From Candidatus Peregrinibacteria bacterium (GTDB taxonomy: Bacteria; Patescibacteriota; Gracilibacteria; UBA1369; JACRIC01), in assembly GCA_016235915.1 (NCBI GenBank), contig JACRIC010000005.1, positions 1 through 14,165 of the forward strand: DNA of 14,165 bases, given 5' to 3'. The notes under the pieces are model-generated. The model saw only the letters and a list, made by a program, of their open reading frames with translations. It searched no databases and was not told where the DNA came from. Both the position numbers and the translations under genes were made by a program. Positions 7,230 through 14,095 of the stretch are shown one piece after another (the first letter of the stretch is position 1; the number at the start of each line of letters is the position of its first letter).

Positions 7230-7243
7230 TATGTTTCGCGTCA

Positions 7244-7271
7244 TTGACTTCAACTCGAAAAAGCCTACAAT
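7244..7271 (+). promoter_or_regulatory. Sigma-70-type promoter for purH
   Basis: TTGACT (7244-7249), a 16-base spacer and TACAAT (7266-7271) form a near-consensus promoter. Transcription would begin near 7278, about 30 bases before the ATG at 7309. This argues against the longer open frame from 7231 and fixes the purH start. Confidence 0.65.
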
Positions 7272-7308
7272 AGCTCAGGTTTTTCCTCGAGGGACAAATT
7301 TTTACCCT

Positions 7309-8853
7309 ATGTCCATTTCCTCTATCAAACGGGCTCTTGTCAGCGTGTCTGATAAAAGCGGGATTGTGGAATTTTCGCGCGAGCTTTCGAAGTTTGGCAT
7401 AGAAATCCTTTCCACCGGCGGGACCACGAAACTTCTTCGAGATCAAGGCATTCGCGTTCAGGAAGTATCCAGTTATACGGGATTCCCGGAAATCCTCAAT
7501 GGCAGAGTCAAAACGCTCCATCCAAAAATTCATGGCGGTATTTTGTCCCAACGACTGGAAGCCGATCAGGCGATTCTCGATCTTCATGGCATTGAGCCGA
7601 TCGATCTCGTTGTTGTTAATCTGTATCCTTTTGAGGACATTCTGCAAAAAGAAGGTGTTTCCGAAGCGGAAATTATTGAACACATCGATATCGGCGGGCC
7701 GACGCTCCTTCGCTCTGCCGCTAAAAATTTCCAATATGTGACGGCCGTAACGGAAAATTCTGATTATTCTGCTATTTTGTCTGAAATCCGCGCTTACGGC
7801 GGAACGACACTTGAACTCCGGCGACGACTTGCGTTTAAAGTGTTTCGTAAAACCTCTCATTACGATCAGGCTATTGCGGATTTTTTTCATGGAAATGGAG
7901 CGAAGCGCGAACTCCTCGACCTGCATTATGAAAAAGTTTTGAGTTTGCGTTATGGCGAAAATCCTCATCAAAAAGCGGCGTTTTTCCGTGATCTTACCAA
8001 TGACTACCCGAATGTCACGAATGCACGAATTCTTCAGGGAAAACAGCTTTCTTACAATAATATTCTCGATACGGATTCTGCTATCAAAATCGTGCAAGAT
8101 TTTGACCGGCCGACCGCCGCGGTTATCAAACATACCAATCCCTGCGGTGTTGCTTCGGCGGAAACGATCGCTGAAGCATTTGAAAAGGCTTATCTTTGCG
8201 ATCCGAAATCGTCTTTTGGCTGTATTATCGCGCTGAATCGTCCATGTGATAAAGAAATCGTGAAATTTTTCCGAAAACATAAAATGTTTGTGGAAATTGT
8301 GGTTGCGCCGTCTTTTAGCGAAAAAGCGTGCTCGCTCCTTTCAAAGAAAAATGACTTGCGTCTTCTGGCCACCGGCGATTTGCGGATCAATCCAAAGGAA
8401 CGGGATATTAAAAGTGTCGGAGGTGGAATTCTCGTGCAGAATATGGATTTTTCGGATATTTCACGAAGCGATCTTAAAATTGTCACGAGACGAGTTCCCA
8501 CCGATGAACAAATGACTGATCTTCTCTTTGCGCGAAAAATCGCGAAGCATGTGAAGTCTAATGCCGTGGTTTTCGCGAAAAACGAGGTCACGACTGGTAT
8601 TGGAGCCGGCCAAATGTCGCGAGTAGACAGTGTGTTTATCGCTGGGCATAAAGCTCTCGATCGCGCGAAGGATTCGGTGATGGCTTCAGATGCATTTTTC
8701 CCGTTTGCGGACGGGGTGACCGAAGCGTGGAAGGCAGGAATTACCGCCATTATTCAGCCAGGCGGCTCGATACGCGATGCCGAAGTAATCGCCAAAGCCG
8801 ATGAGCTGGGGATCGCGATGGTGTTTACGGGAGTGAGGAGTTTCAAGCATTGA
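7309..8853 (+). CDS. purH: Bifunctional AICAR transformylase/IMP cyclohydrolase
   Basis: PurH catalyses the last two steps of IMP synthesis: formylation of AICAR with 10-formyltetrahydrofolate, then closure of FAICAR to IMP. The 514 residues match the usual length (529 in E. coli). The N-terminal cyclohydrolase domain (about 1-195) has SVSDKSGIVEF, STGGTTKLL, GRVKTLHPKIHGG (65-77), NLYPF and IDIGGPTLLRSAAKN. The transformylase domain has RYGENPHQ, QLSYNNILD, the catalytic K274-H275 in KHTNPCG, DPKSSFG, and the C-terminal SDAFFPFADG. Both activities therefore look intact. The ATG at 7309 follows a promoter at 7244-7271; GAGGG lies about 15 bases upstream, rather far for a Shine-Dalgarno. The last 11 bases overlap the end of the toxin gene on the other strand. 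Two PurP-family genes lie 1.6 kb downstream. Confidence 0.97.
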   Translation: MSISSIKRALVSVSDKSGIVEFSRELSKFGIEILSTGGTTKLLRDQGIRVQEVSSYTGFPEILNGRVKTLHPKIHGGILSQRLEADQAILDLHGIEPIDLVVVNLYPFEDILQKEGVSEAEIIEHIDIGGPTLLRSAAKNFQYVTAVTENSDYSAILSEIRAYGGTTLELRRRLAFKVFRKTSHYDQAIADFFHGNGAKRELLDLHYEKVLSLRYGENPHQKAAFFRDLTNDYPNVTNARILQGKQLSYNNILDTDSAIKIVQDFDRPTAAVIKHTNPCGVASAETIAEAFEKAYLCDPKSSFGCIIALNRPCDKEIVKFFRKHKMFVEIVVAPSFSEKACSLLSKKNDLRLLATGDLRINPKERDIKSVGGGILVQNMDFSDISRSDLKIVTRRVPTDEQMTDLLFARKIAKHVKSNAVVFAKNEVTTGIGAGQMSRVDSVFIAGHKALDRAKDSVMASDAFFPFADGVTEAWKAGITAIIQPGGSIRDAEVIAKADELGIAMVFTGVRSFKH

Positions 8854-9193
8854 ACCCAAAAGCCGCGCCGAACGATGATTTCATTTTTCGAAGAAGAGCT
8901 GGATGTACATATCCCAATTCTCCGAGAATGAGTTTTTTATTCAAAGTCGCGATTTTATCAAAACGCACTACGGAATTCATTTTTAGGCCGGTATCTTGAA
9001 AATGAGCATCTGAACTTTTCAAAGAAAAATCCGATAACCGTTTCCTATGTTCCGTTTTGGTCGTTATGAAGGCCACAATGACATCTTCTTCTTTTCCTGA
9101 TGTTCTTGAAATAATCAAAGCAGGCCGCAATTTTGTTGAAGAAAGATCTGTGAATGGAAATGGTATAAGCACTATCGTACCGAATTTATACAT
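8843..9193 (-). CDS. PemK/MazF-like toxin of a type II toxin-antitoxin pair
   Basis: A 116-residue protein with the N-terminal signature of the PemK/MazF family: a hydrophobic strand, PFPFTDLSSTKLRPALIIS (about 11-29), then FITTK near 42-46. Family members are sequence-specific mRNA endoribonucleases; R23 of the LRPA motif is a likely active-site residue. The start ATG lies within the last codons of the upstream antitoxin gene (8-bp overlap, ATGTATAA), the usual coupled arrangement with the antitoxin first. The 3' end overlaps purH by 11 bases tail to tail. It appears full length, with no obvious lesions. The family is fairly sure; cleavage specificity cannot be read from the sequence. Confidence 0.85.
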   Translation of the reverse strand: MYKFGTIVLIPFPFTDLSSTKLRPALIISRTSGKEEDVIVAFITTKTEHRKRLSDFSLKSSDAHFQDTGLKMNSVVRFDKIATLNKKLILGELGYVHPALLRKMKSSFGAAFGFNA

Positions 9194-9431
9194 ATCTTTT
9201 TTTCAAATCTTTTAAAGAATACATATCCGGTTCATCTTCAAGAAATTTGAAACTCCTCGATGCCGCATTGATAGCGCTTATCGGCAATGCTTCTGCCATA
9301 TCCGGTTTTGGCACCATCAACACCTCTTCTTTGTTTCGGTGTCCAATCACCACAATAATTTTCTCATATTTTACGCGATTCAAAATTTCGCTGAAATGTT
9401 TCCTTGCTGATGATGCGCTGTAATGAAGCAT
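9186..9431 (-). CDS. Phd/YefM-like antitoxin
   Basis: The 81-residue product begins MLHYSASSARKHFSEILN, a typical Phd/YefM N-terminal DNA-binding segment (strand, then helix with the S-x-AR-x-x-F pattern). IIVVIGHRNKEEVLMVP completes the fold. The C-terminal half (about 45-81) is charged and would wrap the toxin. The frame runs upstream to 9527, but that part covers the promoter and operator, so I start at the ATG at 9431. It is the first gene of the pair and overlaps the toxin start by 8 bases. It probably represses its own promoter through the TTGTA(T/C) repeats upstream. Confidence 0.8.
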   Translation of the reverse strand: MLHYSASSARKHFSEILNRVKYEKIIVVIGHRNKEEVLMVPKPDMAEALPISAINAASRSFKFLEDEPDMYSLKDLKKRYV

Positions 9432-9435
9432 GTTT

Positions 9436-9488
9436 TTGTATAAATTGTACGTTTGTATATATTTTAGCGTTTTGTACAAAAAAAGCAA
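9436..9488 (-). promoter_or_regulatory. Toxin-antitoxin promoter with repeated operator half-sites
   Basis: On the minus strand TTGCTT (9483-9488), a 16-base spacer and TAAAAT (9461-9466) form a promoter with a predicted start near 9454, about 23 bases before the antitoxin ATG. On the plus strand the hexamers TTGTAT, TTGTAC, TTGTAT and TTGTAC begin at 9436, 9445, 9453 and 9472. The last lies in a perfect 10-base palindrome TTTGTACAAA (9471-9480). They flank the -10, as expected for autoregulation. Confidence 0.5.
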
Positions 9489-9504
9489 ATTTTGTTTAAT
9501 TTCC

Positions 9505-9533
9505 TTGTTTCTAAACATCTTTTCCATTACAAT
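9505..9533 (+). promoter_or_regulatory. Sigma-70-type promoter for uppP, predicting a leaderless message
   Basis: TTGTTT (9505-9510), a 17-base spacer and TACAAT (9528-9533). The expected start (6-8 bases after the -10) is at 9540-9541, which is the first base of the uppP ATG. Confidence 0.6.
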
Positions 9534-10444: not shown

Positions 10445-11461
10445 ATGAAATCGATTCGAGACTTCACCATCGCTACCCTCGGCAGTCATACCGCCCTTCA
10501 GATTCTCAAAGGTGCGAAGGATGAAGGGTTCAAAACCTTGTGCATCTGCCATAAAGATAGGAAAAAACCTTATGAAAGTTATGGAGTGGCTGATGAAATC
10601 CTTGAAATTGAAAATTATGAGGATTTTTTCAAAATTGAAGATGAGCTGATCGCAAAAAACGCCATCATCATTCCGCATGGATCGTTTGTAAGCTACATCG
10701 GATTTGAACGCATGAAAGAGCTCCGCGTCATGCACTACGGTACGAAAGGTATTCTGGAATGGGAATCCGATCGAGTGAAAGAACGAGTGTGGCTTAAAAA
10801 GTCGGGGCTGACTCTTCCTCGTATTTATAAAAATCCCGAAGAAATCGACCGAGCCGTTATCGTTAAATTTCACGGCGCCAAGGGAGGCAAGGGTTATTTT
10901 ATCGCCAATAATTCGCAGGAATTCCATGAAAATATTAAAAAATATCCGGGCGAAAATGATTATGTTCTTCAGGAGTATGTTGTCGGGGTTCCGGTGTATA
11001 CGCATTACTTCTATTCGCGGCTCAATGACGAGTTGGAGGTCATGAGCTTTGATAAACGCTATGAGTCCAACGCGGATTCCATCGGACGAATTGCGGCGCG
11101 AGACCAGCTGGATGTGAATATTCTGACGAGCTACACGATTACTGGCAATATTCCGATCGTGATGCGAGAATCGCTCCTGCCTGAAATTTTTACGATGGGT
11201 GAAAATGTGGTAAAAACGTCGCGCGAATTTGTTTCCGGCGGACTTTTTGGACCATTTTGTCTGGAGGCGATTATTGATCCAAATTTGAATTTTTATGTTT
11301 TTGAAATTTCGGCGCGCATTGTGGCTGGAACGAATCCTTACATCAACGGATCGCCGTATACATGGCTCCGATATCATGAACCTATGAGCACGGGACGGAG
11401 GATTGCTAGAGATATTCGCGAGGCGATTGAGAAGGACGCGCTTTCAAAAGTACTTGGATGA
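10445..11461 (+). CDS. purP: FAICAR synthetase (formate- and ATP-dependent), PurP
   Basis: PurP converts AICAR, formate and ATP into FAICAR without folate. It is an ATP-grasp enzyme characterised in Archaea. The 338 residues carry the family motifs in order: ATLGSHTALQILKGAKDEGFKT (10-31), IPHGSFVSYIG (76-86), GILEWESDR (102-110), HGAKGGKGYF (143-152), DKRYESNADSIGR (203-215), RESLLP (241-246), GPFCLE (269-274), EISARIVAGTN (287-297) and GRRIAR (317-322). It is slightly shorter than characterised archaeal enzymes (about 360), mainly lacking the N-terminal helix, and looks catalytically intact. The ATG at 10445 follows a strong promoter. A divergent paralogue lies 73 bases downstream and purH 1.6 kb upstream. 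Presence in a bacterium suggests ancient transfer from Archaea. Another role of the family in formylating a related substrate cannot be excluded. Confidence 0.9.
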   Translation: MKSIRDFTIATLGSHTALQILKGAKDEGFKTLCICHKDRKKPYESYGVADEILEIENYEDFFKIEDELIAKNAIIIPHGSFVSYIGFERMKELRVMHYGTKGILEWESDRVKERVWLKKSGLTLPRIYKNPEEIDRAVIVKFHGAKGGKGYFIANNSQEFHENIKKYPGENDYVLQEYVVGVPVYTHYFYSRLNDELEVMSFDKRYESNADSIGRIAARDQLDVNILTSYTITGNIPIVMRESLLPEIFTMGENVVKTSREFVSGGLFGPFCLEAIIDPNLNFYVFEISARIVAGTNPYINGSPYTWLRYHEPMSTGRRIARDIREAIEKDALSKVLG

Positions 11462-11504
11462 TTTCAAGGAGATATATTCCTTGAAATTGATTTATTTCAA
11501 GGAA
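11461..11504 (+). repeat. Three-copy repeat forming alternative hairpins between the purP genes
   Basis: Copy 1 ATTTCAAGGA (11461-11470), copy 2 inverted TTCCTTGAAAT (11477-11487) and copy 3 ATTTCAAGGAA (11494-11504) lie within 44 bases. Copies 1 and 2 can form a 10-bp stem with a 7-base loop; copies 2 and 3 can form a perfect 11-bp stem with a 6-base loop followed by TTTTAT. The two structures exclude each other. The first overlaps the purP stop codon; the second spans the -35 region of the next gene's promoter. It may serve as terminator, attenuator or operator. Confidence 0.6.
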
Positions 11505-11515
11505 TTTTATATACT
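11487..11515 (+). promoter_or_regulatory. Promoter for the second purP-family gene
   Basis: TTGATT (11487-11492), 17 bases, TATACT (11510-11515). Transcription would start near 11522, 13 bases before the ATG at 11535, with no Shine-Dalgarno. The -35 lies in the loop and edge of the repeat hairpin. Confidence 0.5.
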
Positions 11516-11534
11516 GGGGAACCTCTGAAAAACT

Positions 11535-12674
11535 ATGTTTCATAACGAAATTTACAAAATTCTTTCACAATATAACCTTGACGATATTACGATTGGGGTT
11601 CTTGGAGGACACAGCGCGCTGGATGTGTGTCATGGAGCGAAAAAGCATGGCTTTAAGACGCTTGCGGTTTGTCGAATTGGACGCGAAAAAACATACGCCA
11701 AATATTATAAGACGCGAGACGGTAAAGGTTGTGTCGATGACGTGATTCTTGTTGAATCTTTTTCTGATATTTTGAAACCTGAAATTCAAGAGGAGCTTCG
11801 GAAGAGAAACACGATTTTTATCCACAATCGCTATTTTTGGGTGTATTTTTCCGATCCGAGCCGCGTGGAAAAAGAGTTTTTCGTACCAATTTTCGGGTCT
11901 CGCGAGATGCTCAAGCTCGAGGAGCGTGATGTTGAAAAAAATCAATATTATCTCCTTCAGTCAGCGGGGATTCGCACGCCGAAAATTTATGACAATCCGA
12001 AAGAAATTCATCCTGATCGGACGGGGCCGGTTATTGTCAAAGTGAATGAGGCGATTCGAGGATATGAACGGTCGTTTTTTGTTGCAAAGGATTATGCGGA
12101 TTTTTGTGCACAACGCGACAGGCTCATTTCTGAAGGGAAAATTACGAAGGCGGCACTTGATCGAGCAGTTATCGAAGAATTTGTCCTCGGCGCGCCCATC
12201 AATTTCAACTATTTTTATTCTCCTTTGACCGGCGAATTAGAACTCATAGGGACGGATATTCGACGGCAAACGAGTCTGGATGGTTTTTTGAGGCTTCCTG
12301 CAGATATTCAGATGGATGTTTTGGGAAAATGCCGTCCGACCATGGTGGAAACTGGGCATATTGCCTGTACCACCAAGGAATCCATTTTGGAAAAAGCATT
12401 TGAAATCGGTGAAAAATTTATTGCGCTGACTGCGAAAGAGGTCCCGCCCGGGATTATCGGGCCTTTTGCGCTTCAGGGAGCGGTCTCGGCTGAGAAAGGG
12501 TGCGAGGAAATCGTGATTTTTGACGTGAGTATGCGGATTCCCGGCTCTCCGGGAACGAGATTTACTCCCCTCACGGGCTATCTCTACGGCGATACGATCA
12601 GTTATGGGGAAAGAATTGCGATGGAGATTCGGGAGGGGGTGAAGAGCGGGAGGATGATTGAACTTTTGACGTAA
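11535..12674 (+). CDS. Divergent PurP-family ATP-grasp protein
   Basis: The 379-residue product aligns by eye over its full length with archaeal PurP. It has the N-terminal helix and DDITIGVLGGHSALDVCHGAKKHGF (16-40), VPIFGSREML (117-126), VIEEFVLGAPINFNYFYSPL (212-231), VPPGIIGPFALQ (303-314) and GERIAMEI (358-365). Several positions invariant in the working enzyme are changed. IPHGSF has become FIHNRYF (95-101). The Gly-rich ATP loop GAKGGxGYF has become VNEAIRGYERSFF (170-182). RYESNxDG has become RRQTSLDG (243-250), RESLL has become TKESIL, and EISARIxxGTN has become DVSMRIPGSPGTR (330-342). It may use another substrate, regulate the intact PurP as a partner subunit, or be inactive. It has its own promoter, and no frame damage is seen. 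The family is sure; the activity is not. Confidence 0.8.
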   Translation: MFHNEIYKILSQYNLDDITIGVLGGHSALDVCHGAKKHGFKTLAVCRIGREKTYAKYYKTRDGKGCVDDVILVESFSDILKPEIQEELRKRNTIFIHNRYFWVYFSDPSRVEKEFFVPIFGSREMLKLEERDVEKNQYYLLQSAGIRTPKIYDNPKEIHPDRTGPVIVKVNEAIRGYERSFFVAKDYADFCAQRDRLISEGKITKAALDRAVIEEFVLGAPINFNYFYSPLTGELELIGTDIRRQTSLDGFLRLPADIQMDVLGKCRPTMVETGHIACTTKESILEKAFEIGEKFIALTAKEVPPGIIGPFALQGAVSAEKGCEEIVIFDVSMRIPGSPGTRFTPLTGYLYGDTISYGERIAMEIREGVKSGRMIELLT

Positions 12675-12745: not shown

Positions 12746-14095
12746 ATGAAAGTCATTTTTCTCGCGGCGGGACGGAGCAAGCGCATGGCGCCCATTCCTG
12801 ATAAAAATTTTTTGGAGTTTTGCGGACGTTCGCTGATATTTCGCCAATTTGAAATTTTGACTCAAGCGGGTTTTTTCGATTTCCTTATTATTGGAGGAGC
12901 GCATAATATCGAGAAATTGCGCGAATTTGCAAAAAATCCGGAAACACAGAGACTTTTTGGCAATCGGAAGTCAAATATTGTCGTTTTAGAGCAAGTTGAT
13001 CTCGATTCTGGCATGGCTGGGGCGGTTTTGACCGCGCAGTCTTCCCTTTCCGATGAGCCCGTGCTCGTCGTCAACAGCAATGATATTCTTGATCTTACTG
13101 CTTTTTCAGCGGTGCTCAATGCCTCGAAAGATGAAATTTTTGAGAGTTTTCTCTTGGCAAAAAAGGTTTCTGAATATTTTCCCGGCGGATATCTGGAGGT
13201 TGGCGCAGACGGCTCTCTTTCCACCATTATTGAAAAACCCGCAAAAGGAAGCGAGTCGAGCGACCTCGTAAATATTGTGGTCCATTTTCATAGAAATCCT
13301 ACAAAACTTTTTCAATATCTGAAAAATACCCACAGCGATCGCGATGATCGTTATGAAATGGCTTTATCGTCCATGCTCCACGATGGCATTCGGATGAAGG
13401 CAGTTCCGTATGACGACTTCTGGCAGGCCATAAAATATCCTTGGCATATTTTTCCCGCCGAGCGGCATTTTTTTTCCGAAATATTTTTAAAAACTGCGAA
13501 AAAAATAGCTGATTCGGCTGACATCGCGCCTTCCGCCGTCATAAAAGGAGACGTGATTATCGGCGAAGGGGTGCGGATTTTTGACGTGGCGTGTGTGAAT
13601 GGGCCGGCCTATATCGGCGATGGCACGATCGTGGCGAATCATGCTTTGGTGCGAGATTCTTTTATCGGGAGAAATTGCGTAATCGGATATTCGACGGAAG
13701 TGGCGCGGAGCGTGGTCGGAAATGATGTGTGGTTTCATACGAATTACATCGGAGACAGCGTGATTTGCGATAACTGTGCTTTTGGATCAGGAGCGGTGAC
13801 GGGAAATCTGCGGCTGGATGAAAAAAATGTGTGTGTGGAGACTCATGGCGAAAAAATCGATTGTGGATCGAATAAAATAGGGGCTCTTGTCGGACCGAAT
13901 GTTCGCATCGGCATCAATACGAGCCTTATGCCCGGAGTAAAAATCGGAGCGGATACTTTTATCGGATCAGGAATTGTTGTGGGAAAAGATATTGCTGAAG
14001 GGAGTTATGTCACGGGAAAATGGGAGCTTGAGATTCGTCCGAATAGGACTTCTATGAACGTGTCGGCAAGAGAGAAAATGCGAAAGAATCTTTAG
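12746..14095 (+). CDS. GlmU-like sugar-1-phosphate nucleotidyltransferase with left-handed beta-helix domain
   Basis: The 449-residue protein has an N-terminal nucleotidyltransferase domain (about 1-235). It opens with VIFLAAGRSKRM (3-14), a variant of the LAAGxGxRM nucleotide loop, followed by GMAGAVL, VVNSNDIL (the position of the metal-binding DxD/GD motif), IIEKPAKG and IKYPWHIF. The second domain (about 250-440) is built of hexapeptide repeats (IAPSAVIKGDVIIGEGVRI and similar), the left-handed beta-helix of acyltransferases. The layout matches the archaeal-type GlmU-like family, which makes UDP-GlcNAc, UDP-glucose or dTDP-glucose. Sugar and nucleotide are not determined by what I can see. 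A role in cell-envelope precursor supply fits nearby uppP. The ATG at 12746 is about 19 bases after the likely transcript start and has no Shine-Dalgarno. Confidence 0.85.
   Translation: MKVIFLAAGRSKRMAPIPDKNFLEFCGRSLIFRQFEILTQAGFFDFLIIGGAHNIEKLREFAKNPETQRLFGNRKSNIVVLEQVDLDSGMAGAVLTAQSSLSDEPVLVVNSNDILDLTAFSAVLNASKDEIFESFLLAKKVSEYFPGGYLEVGADGSLSTIIEKPAKGSESSDLVNIVVHFHRNPTKLFQYLKNTHSDRDDRYEMALSSMLHDGIRMKAVPYDDFWQAIKYPWHIFPAERHFFSEIFLKTAKKIADSADIAPSAVIKGDVIIGEGVRIFDVACVNGPAYIGDGTIVANHALVRDSFIGRNCVIGYSTEVARSVVGNDVWFHTNYIGDSVICDNCAFGSGAVTGNLRLDEKNVCVETHGEKIDCGSNKIGALVGPNVRIGINTSLMPGVKIGADTFIGSGIVVGKDIAEGSYVTGKWELEIRPNRTSMNVSAREKMRKNL

Follow-up and report, generated by a model that had tools for sequence, protein, structure and literature searches.

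A conserved pair of PurP-family ATP-grasp proteins in Patescibacteria and archaea as a putative two-subunit AICAR-formylating enzyme beside PurH

Two adjoining genes of a Candidatus Peregrinibacteria genome encode the PurP-family proteins P1 and P2, which together may constitute a two-subunit formate- and ATP-dependent AICAR-formylating enzyme that works as a FAICAR synthetase beside PurH, a reading whose chances we place at about even. The reading builds on the family and fold of the two proteins, the conserved replacements in P2, near-constant co-occurrence, close gene arrangement and a tie to purine genes, and extends from these to a physical P1–P2 complex, a reaction and a division of labour that the two subunits would share. 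The genes lie in a stretch of 14,165 nucleotides, the window, on contig JACRIC010000005.1 of an assembly (GCA_016235915.1) of 683 kb in 120 contigs that is 80% complete, and the closest bacterial relatives of the locus are Peregrinibacteria, Peribacteria, Gracilibacteria or Patescibacteria by their public-record names. The principal features are as follows:

7231..8853, plus strand: PurH, full-length (AICAR transformylase and IMP cyclohydrolase), the usual companion of the pair
10445..11461, plus strand: P1, ATG start, 338 aa, PurP-family ATP-grasp protein of cluster I type
11462..11534, plus strand: P1–P2 intergenic stretch of 73 nt with two overlapping hairpins
11535..12674, plus strand: P2, ATG start, 379 aa, PurP-family protein with the cluster II signature, HNRYW subtype

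PurH and UppP are located 5′ of the pair and a GlmU-like nucleotidyltransferase is located 3′ of it. The window PurH scores 710 bits against an NCBIfam cut-off of 402 and carries an intact Lys-His motif. Between PurH and UppP lie two small adjoining minus-strand ORFs (8843-9527), which by eye resemble a toxin-antitoxin module. The GlmU-like nucleotidyltransferase/hexapeptide protein (12746-14095) obtains its best scores from archaeal models, below their cut-offs, and its family is present in 26 of the compared loci at a median distance of 268 nt from the pair. Within the P1–P2 gap, three alternating TTTCAAGGA/TTCCTTGAA copies (11459-11505) generate two mutually exclusive hairpins, the first spanning 11459-11489 and the second 11476-11505, followed by a T-rich tail. 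This region has a fold z-score of -2.69, an Rfam search of the whole window at E up to 1 returned no matches, and the repeats and hairpins may represent an attenuator or what is left of a small repeat.

Both genes encode full-length PurP-family ATP-grasp proteins, as the initial annotation had proposed, a conclusion carried by the ORF calls, by DUF1246 and DUF1297 domains well above Pfam cut-offs in both, and by PDB matches. Specifically, the closest PDB relative of P1 is PF1517 of P. furiosus (2r84; E 6.5e-117) and the closest PDB match of P2 is MJ0136 of M. jannaschii (2r7k; E 2.5e-66), while P1 and P2 are 31% identical to each other. The NCBIfam FAICAR-ligase models match both proteins under their curated cut-offs, the best scores being 444 bits against 580 for P1 and 269 bits against 556 for P2, so neither is filed as a FAICAR synthetase by sequence, and the claim made here is that the pair works like one. 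Structure models of P2 reached a pLDDT of 63.3 with a 13-row alignment and 91.3 with a 107-row alignment; the best fold match of the latter is FAICAR synthetase 2r7m (TMt 0.93, rmsd 2.0), with PurK, PurD and biotin carboxylase among the next matches, which places the predicted fold of P2 in the ATP-grasp superfamily. PurP-family relatives number 7,123 at E up to 0.001 among 8,000 scored.

The catalytic site of P1 closely follows that of MJ0136, whose numbering is used throughout. At 23 compared sites P1 reads HPHGSVKGGKRYESNRESCEESR, against HPHGSIKGGRRYESNRESCQESR in MJ0136. Residue counts derive from 90 distinct P1 and 111 distinct P2 proteins aligned from Patescibacteria matches, the best 80 of 379 named loci, their P1 loci and fetched stretches, a set that leans to close relatives and excludes shorter pieces (6 listed). 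H27, N258, E310, S312 and R314 are present in 90/90 P1 proteins. An MJ0136-like catalytic site is true of P1 and not of P2, which differs at the loop and at sites 94, 258 and 310. The Gly-rich loop is suspected of ATP binding in a passage of PMC3261824. The alignment locates the corresponding segments of P1 at:

10673..10687, plus strand: PHGSF segment, with the site aligned with MJ0136 Ser94
10865..10900, plus strand: Lys156 and the Gly-rich loop KFHGAKGGKGYF
11054..11068, plus strand: KRYES segment
11303..11335, plus strand: EISARIVAGTN segment (E310, S312, R314)

In P2, the same alignment confirms the earlier claim that four segments (Gly-rich loop, PHGSF, RYES and EISAR...GTN) are altered. 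The replacements, together with the cluster II hallmark at site 258, lie at:

11823..11840, plus strand: HNRYFW in place of PHGSF, Ser94 replaced by Tyr (Y94 in 106/111, S94 in the other 5)
12039..12080, plus strand: KVNEAIRGYERSFF in place of the Gly-rich loop, Lys156 retained
12261..12272, plus strand: RRQT in place of RYES, R228 retained
12351..12365, plus strand: TGHIA, Asn258 replaced by His, the cluster II hallmark (H258 in 111/111 P2)
12522..12554, plus strand: DVSMRIPGSPG in place of EISARIVAGTN, E310 replaced by D, S312 and R314 retained

The P2 loop changes from GAKGGKG to EAIRGYER, loses the (K/R)GG(K/R)G consensus at 161-165, is positively charged and is two residues longer than that of P1, with R162 in 110/111 and R164 in 111/111. 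Residues K156, D226, R228, E265, S266, Q297 and R314 are retained in 111/111 P2 proteins, D310 and S312 each occur in 110/111, and H27 in 109/111 (one gap, one Arg), the window P2 carrying both H27 and R314. Among the 5′-phosphate contacts, S266 is invariant (111/111), and site 94 is Tyr in 106/111, the window protein included. The proposed rebuilding of the P2 active site therefore stands for the four segments but not in degree, since H27, K156, D226, R228, E265, S266, Q297, S312 and R314 are retained. An additional set of 14 P2 proteins from the phylum of G414 (Thermoplasmatales-named), 36-54% identical by BLAST, keeps H27, R93, K156, R164, D226, R228, H258, E265, S266, Q297, D310 and R314 in 14/14; here site 162 is Lys in 11, S312 is replaced by Ala in 11, and site 94 holds Ser in 10 proteins, with Tyr and Ala in 2 each. 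Judged by residues 91-96, P2 proteins fall into at least three subtypes, namely the HNRYW-like form of the window (ESRYW in two), a PHRSE form in five Patescibacteria genomes and a PNRST-like form.

The replacements in P2 are shared across a lineage. In a tree of 99 rows (quick method, midpoint root; 41 P1 and 56 P2 rows), P1 and P2 each form one side of a branch with support of 100, and the P1 side also takes in MJ0136 and PF1517; the tree contains no named cluster II protein, so the assignment of P2 to cluster II rests on its signature. In the tree check suggested at the outset, P2 forms a clade of its own with conserved replacement residues, and the refuting condition named there, replacements that are random or genes that are frequently broken among relatives, does not hold. 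Decay of a duplicate would explain the loss of motifs relative to P1, and one copy, in G235, is clearly decayed; the altered set nevertheless hardly varies among 111 distinct P2 proteins, G235 being the one clear exception, P2 is a single clade with 100% support, and its 120 listed relatives are 64-74% identical, which renders decay scarcely credible and upholds the initial view of concerted change. Near-constant pairing and a strictly conserved site make P2 probably a working partner, of unspecified role, rather than a broken copy. The data point to strong selection on P2, to its association with P1 and to a link with purine synthesis. The description of the genes as tandem paralogues is correct in that they adjoin; a local duplication in the window genome was considered and rejected, since each protein belongs to a clade of its own and both clades recur in many genomes, and the arrangement fits the ancient archaeal cluster Ib/II pair described in passages of PMC3261824. 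Archaeal P2 rows are intermixed with Patescibacteria rows on weakly supported branches, so that transfer between archaea and Patescibacteria, in either direction, is likely. Two records show irregularities of their own: at L085:65-1084, P1 is present as two ORFs with an in-frame stop between them and an intact P2 beside it in the record, and L106 (JAACEU010000114.1) is a Nitrospirae-labelled contig whose P1–P2 pair falls inside Patescibacteria tree rows and which is probably mis-binned.

The two proteins occur together in nearly all genomes that carry either. Among the matches listed, at least two PurP matches are found in 154 of 158 PurP-positive genomes (732 searched, even draws from three phyla). 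In the even draw from the window's phylum, PurP is present in 38/379 genomes and both types in 37/38, the sole exception being G235, with P2 only. Counts for the other two phyla are of PurP matches, not each typed as P1 or P2 and some of them fragments: in the phylum of G434 (Woesearchaeota-named) PurP occurs in 27/237 genomes, with at least two matches in 27/27, and in that of G414 it occurs in 93/116, with at least two matches in 90 and one in 3 among the matches listed. The single PurP gene of these 3 genomes is P1-type in the two that were fetched. P1 and P2 share a piece in 32 of the best 80 of 379 named loci, among them L085 with its in-frame stop, and the remaining 48 comprise 40 with P1 elsewhere and 8 with P2 alone. 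All 8 P2-alone genomes carry the full P2 signature, and so P2 is not always decayed where no P1 is found in the assembly; this weakens strict P1–P2 obligacy, unless the assemblies are incomplete. Several of the P2-alone and single-PurP cases are small or contig-edge assemblies, which does not account for all of them.

Gene order adds a second line of evidence. P1 lies first and on the same strand in 59/59 loci with both genes on the piece (unique P2), with gaps of -43 to 7,401 nt, 100 nt or less in 33. The reverse order, with P2 first, is found in three G414-phylum genomes (L185, L186 and L187), where the P1 reading frame stays open through the P2 stop, which the likely P1 start overlaps by 4 nt; these starts (TTG, GTG and TTG, respectively) are inferred, there being no ATG nearby. 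That the genes are often closely packed in either order suggests that their joint production has been selected more than once, and together with the near all-or-none occurrence this bears out the pairing envisaged in the initial annotation, whereas the hetero-oligomer, new substrate or pseudoenzyme that it also raised stay conjectural. In archaea the genes are often unlinked, P1 being absent from the piece of P2 in 48/80 (best 80 of 379 named loci). No natural P1–P2 fusion occurs among 120 listed of 383 matches, and the distance correlation over 24 loci, lower for P1–P2 (0.85) than for P1–PurH (0.93), is uninformative. In L047, L058, L089 and other Thermoplasmata-named loci, P2 adjoins a threonyl-tRNA synthetase of archaeal type (family in 35 loci), and a 5-formyl-THF cyclo-ligase (family in 32 loci) is often a further neighbour, one representative of each having been Pfam-checked; the genomic tie of P2 to the synthetase in Thermoplasmatota-named loci is present and not interpretable.

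These distributions bear on whether the two proteins act jointly. P1 alone might be the FAICAR synthetase, with P2 a separate enzyme that acts on another substrate and shares only the pathway. P2 keeps Lys156, Q297, D310, S312 and R314 and hence may still be an active ATP-grasp ligase, and the unlinked genes of many archaea and the intact P2 with no P1 found in 8/80 (best 80 of 379) point in the same direction. Set against this are the near all-or-none co-occurrence, the apparent 4-nt overlaps and the inactivity reported for PF1517 alone in a passage of PMC3261824; on balance, two independent enzymes seem improbable.

The pair is closely associated with PurH. In the window's phylum, PurH is present in 80/379 genomes, 36/38 with PurP versus 44/341 without it (Fisher p 1.2e-25, kinship uncorrected; 12/13 family codes). 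A further 54 P2-bearing genomes were searched for PurH and PurO, comprising 46/48 named genomes with unlinked P1 or P2 alone and 8 DPANN genomes and leaving out G426, G427 and other named genomes with tandem genes; PurH was found in 49/54 and PurO in 0/54, the latter result being neutral on the cyclohydrolase question. PurH thus accompanies the pair or P2 in 85/92 genomes tested (36/38 and 49/54), as detected by a model that covers the transformylase part, the cyclohydrolase part having been read in fetched sequences alone. PurC and FolD were each sought in 80 genomes, 13 of them without PurP; in the other 67, which carry the pair or P2, PurC is matched in 64 and FolD in 62. The Lys-His motif is present in the PurH of PurP-bearing sequences read that cover it and, with FolD in 62/67, leaves no pathway gap that needs filling. 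The idea that PurP substitutes for a dead PurH was rejected, as L145 and L148 show KHLSPCG with Lys-His intact.

Individual loci display the same purine context. L148 has the order P1-P2-PurH-PurB-PurE-PurC, PurB being seen only as Lyase_1, and in L146 the two PurP genes flank PurA. In family f9, 13/15 genomes have the pair and PurH. G235 of this family (L151, G235:C3) lacks both P1 and PurH, its PurC match is weak and broken into two pieces, its P2 has lost H27, D310 and S312, and it is perhaps a natural example of pathway loss; G167, also of f9, is without the pair, PurH and PurC. The PurH of L166 (G080) is apparently encoded by two ORFs, one of 223 aa that is IMP-cyclohydrolase-like and one of 342 aa for the transformylase.

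The companionship with PurH informs two further alternatives. For archaea without PurO and PurH, passages of Brown et al. (PMC3261824) speculate that the role of the missing IMP cyclohydrolase is filled by one of the two PurP proteins; assigning this role to P2 is very unlikely here, as P2 is accompanied by PurH (49/54 and 36/38), which normally brings its own cyclohydrolase domain. Alternatively, P1 and P2 may jointly couple formate, or some other small acid, to a ribonucleotide other than AICAR in purine metabolism and make no FAICAR. This would explain the persistence of the pair next to a complete PurH, found in 85/92 P2-bearing genomes with Lys-His kept where read and with FolD in 62/67, and it agrees with the replacement of N258, the contact to the AICAR carboxamide, by His in 111/111 P2 proteins and with the frequent position of P2 beside the 5-formyl-THF cyclo-ligase in Thermoplasmatota-named loci (family in 32 loci, one Pfam-checked). 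However, P1 is nearly identical to MJ0136 at the compared sites and crystals of PF1517 hold AICAR, which makes AICAR the obvious substrate of P1. A different joint reaction is accordingly doubtful, though it ranks next to AICAR formylation since these genomes do not need a second FAICAR route.

In the favoured two-subunit reading, the pair would serve de novo purine synthesis alongside the folate-dependent PurH. P1, with all catalytic residues present, would make formyl phosphate and formylate AICAR. P2, which keeps the His/Arg pair that contacts formate, the lysine of the ATP-grasp site and the residues on the metal side, and whose phosphate loop and nucleotide pocket are rebuilt, may act as a partner or regulatory subunit, such that P1 would be poorly active or unregulated without it. 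In passages of PMC3261824 citing another paper, PF1517 and PF0421 are each reported to be without AICAR formyltransferase activity; subunits tested apart might behave in this way, and the inactivity of each singly favours a two-subunit, FAICAR-synthetase-like enzyme. The MJ0136-like site of P1, the AMP and AICAR in PF1517 crystals and the residue losses in the P2 of G235, where P1 and PurH are missing, also speak for it. Counting against it are the P2-alone genomes (8/80), the single-PurP genomes, archaeal unlinking, the absence of a pathway gap, the lack of a fusion and the higher P1–PurH correlation. As a tentative extension, more doubtful than the two-subunit reading itself, P1–P2 might be an obligate heteromeric ATP-grasp ligase whose conserved, re-tooled paralogue, by binding another nucleotide, controls or diverts the catalytic subunit, providing a second, formate-fed and regulated branch at or near the AICAR step despite a complete PurH, and a two-gene enzyme passed between archaea and Patescibacteria. 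Pairing, close arrangement and PurH coexistence turn the puzzle of purP duplication into a simple test, namely assay of both proteins together. Should the pair be a two-subunit formate-dependent enzyme beside PurH, a very large family would need to be re-annotated, and its activity may have gone unnoticed in assays of single genes.

In E. coli, one formylation step is served by the folate-using PurN and the formate-using ATP-grasp enzyme PurT, the latter a single-gene enzyme acting on GAR. In the favoured reading, PurH and the pair would resemble this system in serving one formylation step with a folate-using enzyme and a formate-using ATP-grasp enzyme, and differ from it in that PurT is encoded by a single gene and takes GAR as substrate.

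Among PurP proteins, MJ0136 (cluster Ia, PDB 2r7k-2r7n) shares its fold with both proteins and its site residues with P1, and is unlike P2 at the loop and at sites 94, 258 and 310; unlike the window pair, the MJ0136 group has a single purP and no PurH1 according to passages of PMC3261824. The cluster Ib protein PF1517 (PDB 2r84-2r87), whose crystals contain AMP and AICAR by their PDB titles, has the same site residues as P1, save a Thr at 92, and differs in that the host of P1 is bacterial. Brown et al. 2011 (PMC3261824) describe, in the passages concerned, an archaeal pair of cluster Ib and cluster II proteins, to which the window pair would belong by its signature. There, cluster II, exemplified by PF0421 and AF0256, is without demonstrated function, the purP duplication has no biochemical or regulatory explanation, and Methanosarcinales have PurH plus typically two PurP genes. 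Cluster II is always accompanied by a cluster I partner in the same passages, adjacent to it in Sulfolobales, Pyrobaculum islandicum and Korarchaeum; in the window, P1 adjoins P2. Passages of PMC6797443 still mark cluster II separately and give no activity, and a passage of PMC9012536 mentions PurP only as a formate-using alternative. Among the matches listed from the open-access literature, outside which subscription journals mostly lie, there is no later experiment on cluster II, and neither a Patescibacteria pair nor a heteromeric PurP is reported. The pair itself is known in archaea; new here are its near all-or-none occurrence, its full-PurH companionship, the apparent overlaps in reverse order and the Tyr94 subtype. 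Like the archaeal cluster II proteins in passages of PMC3261824, P2 has His258, retains H27 and R314 and carries a positive loop two residues longer; unlike those described, it is found in Patescibacteria, DPANN and Thermoplasmatota-named genomes, bears Tyr94 in its HNRYW subtype and is accompanied by a full PurH.
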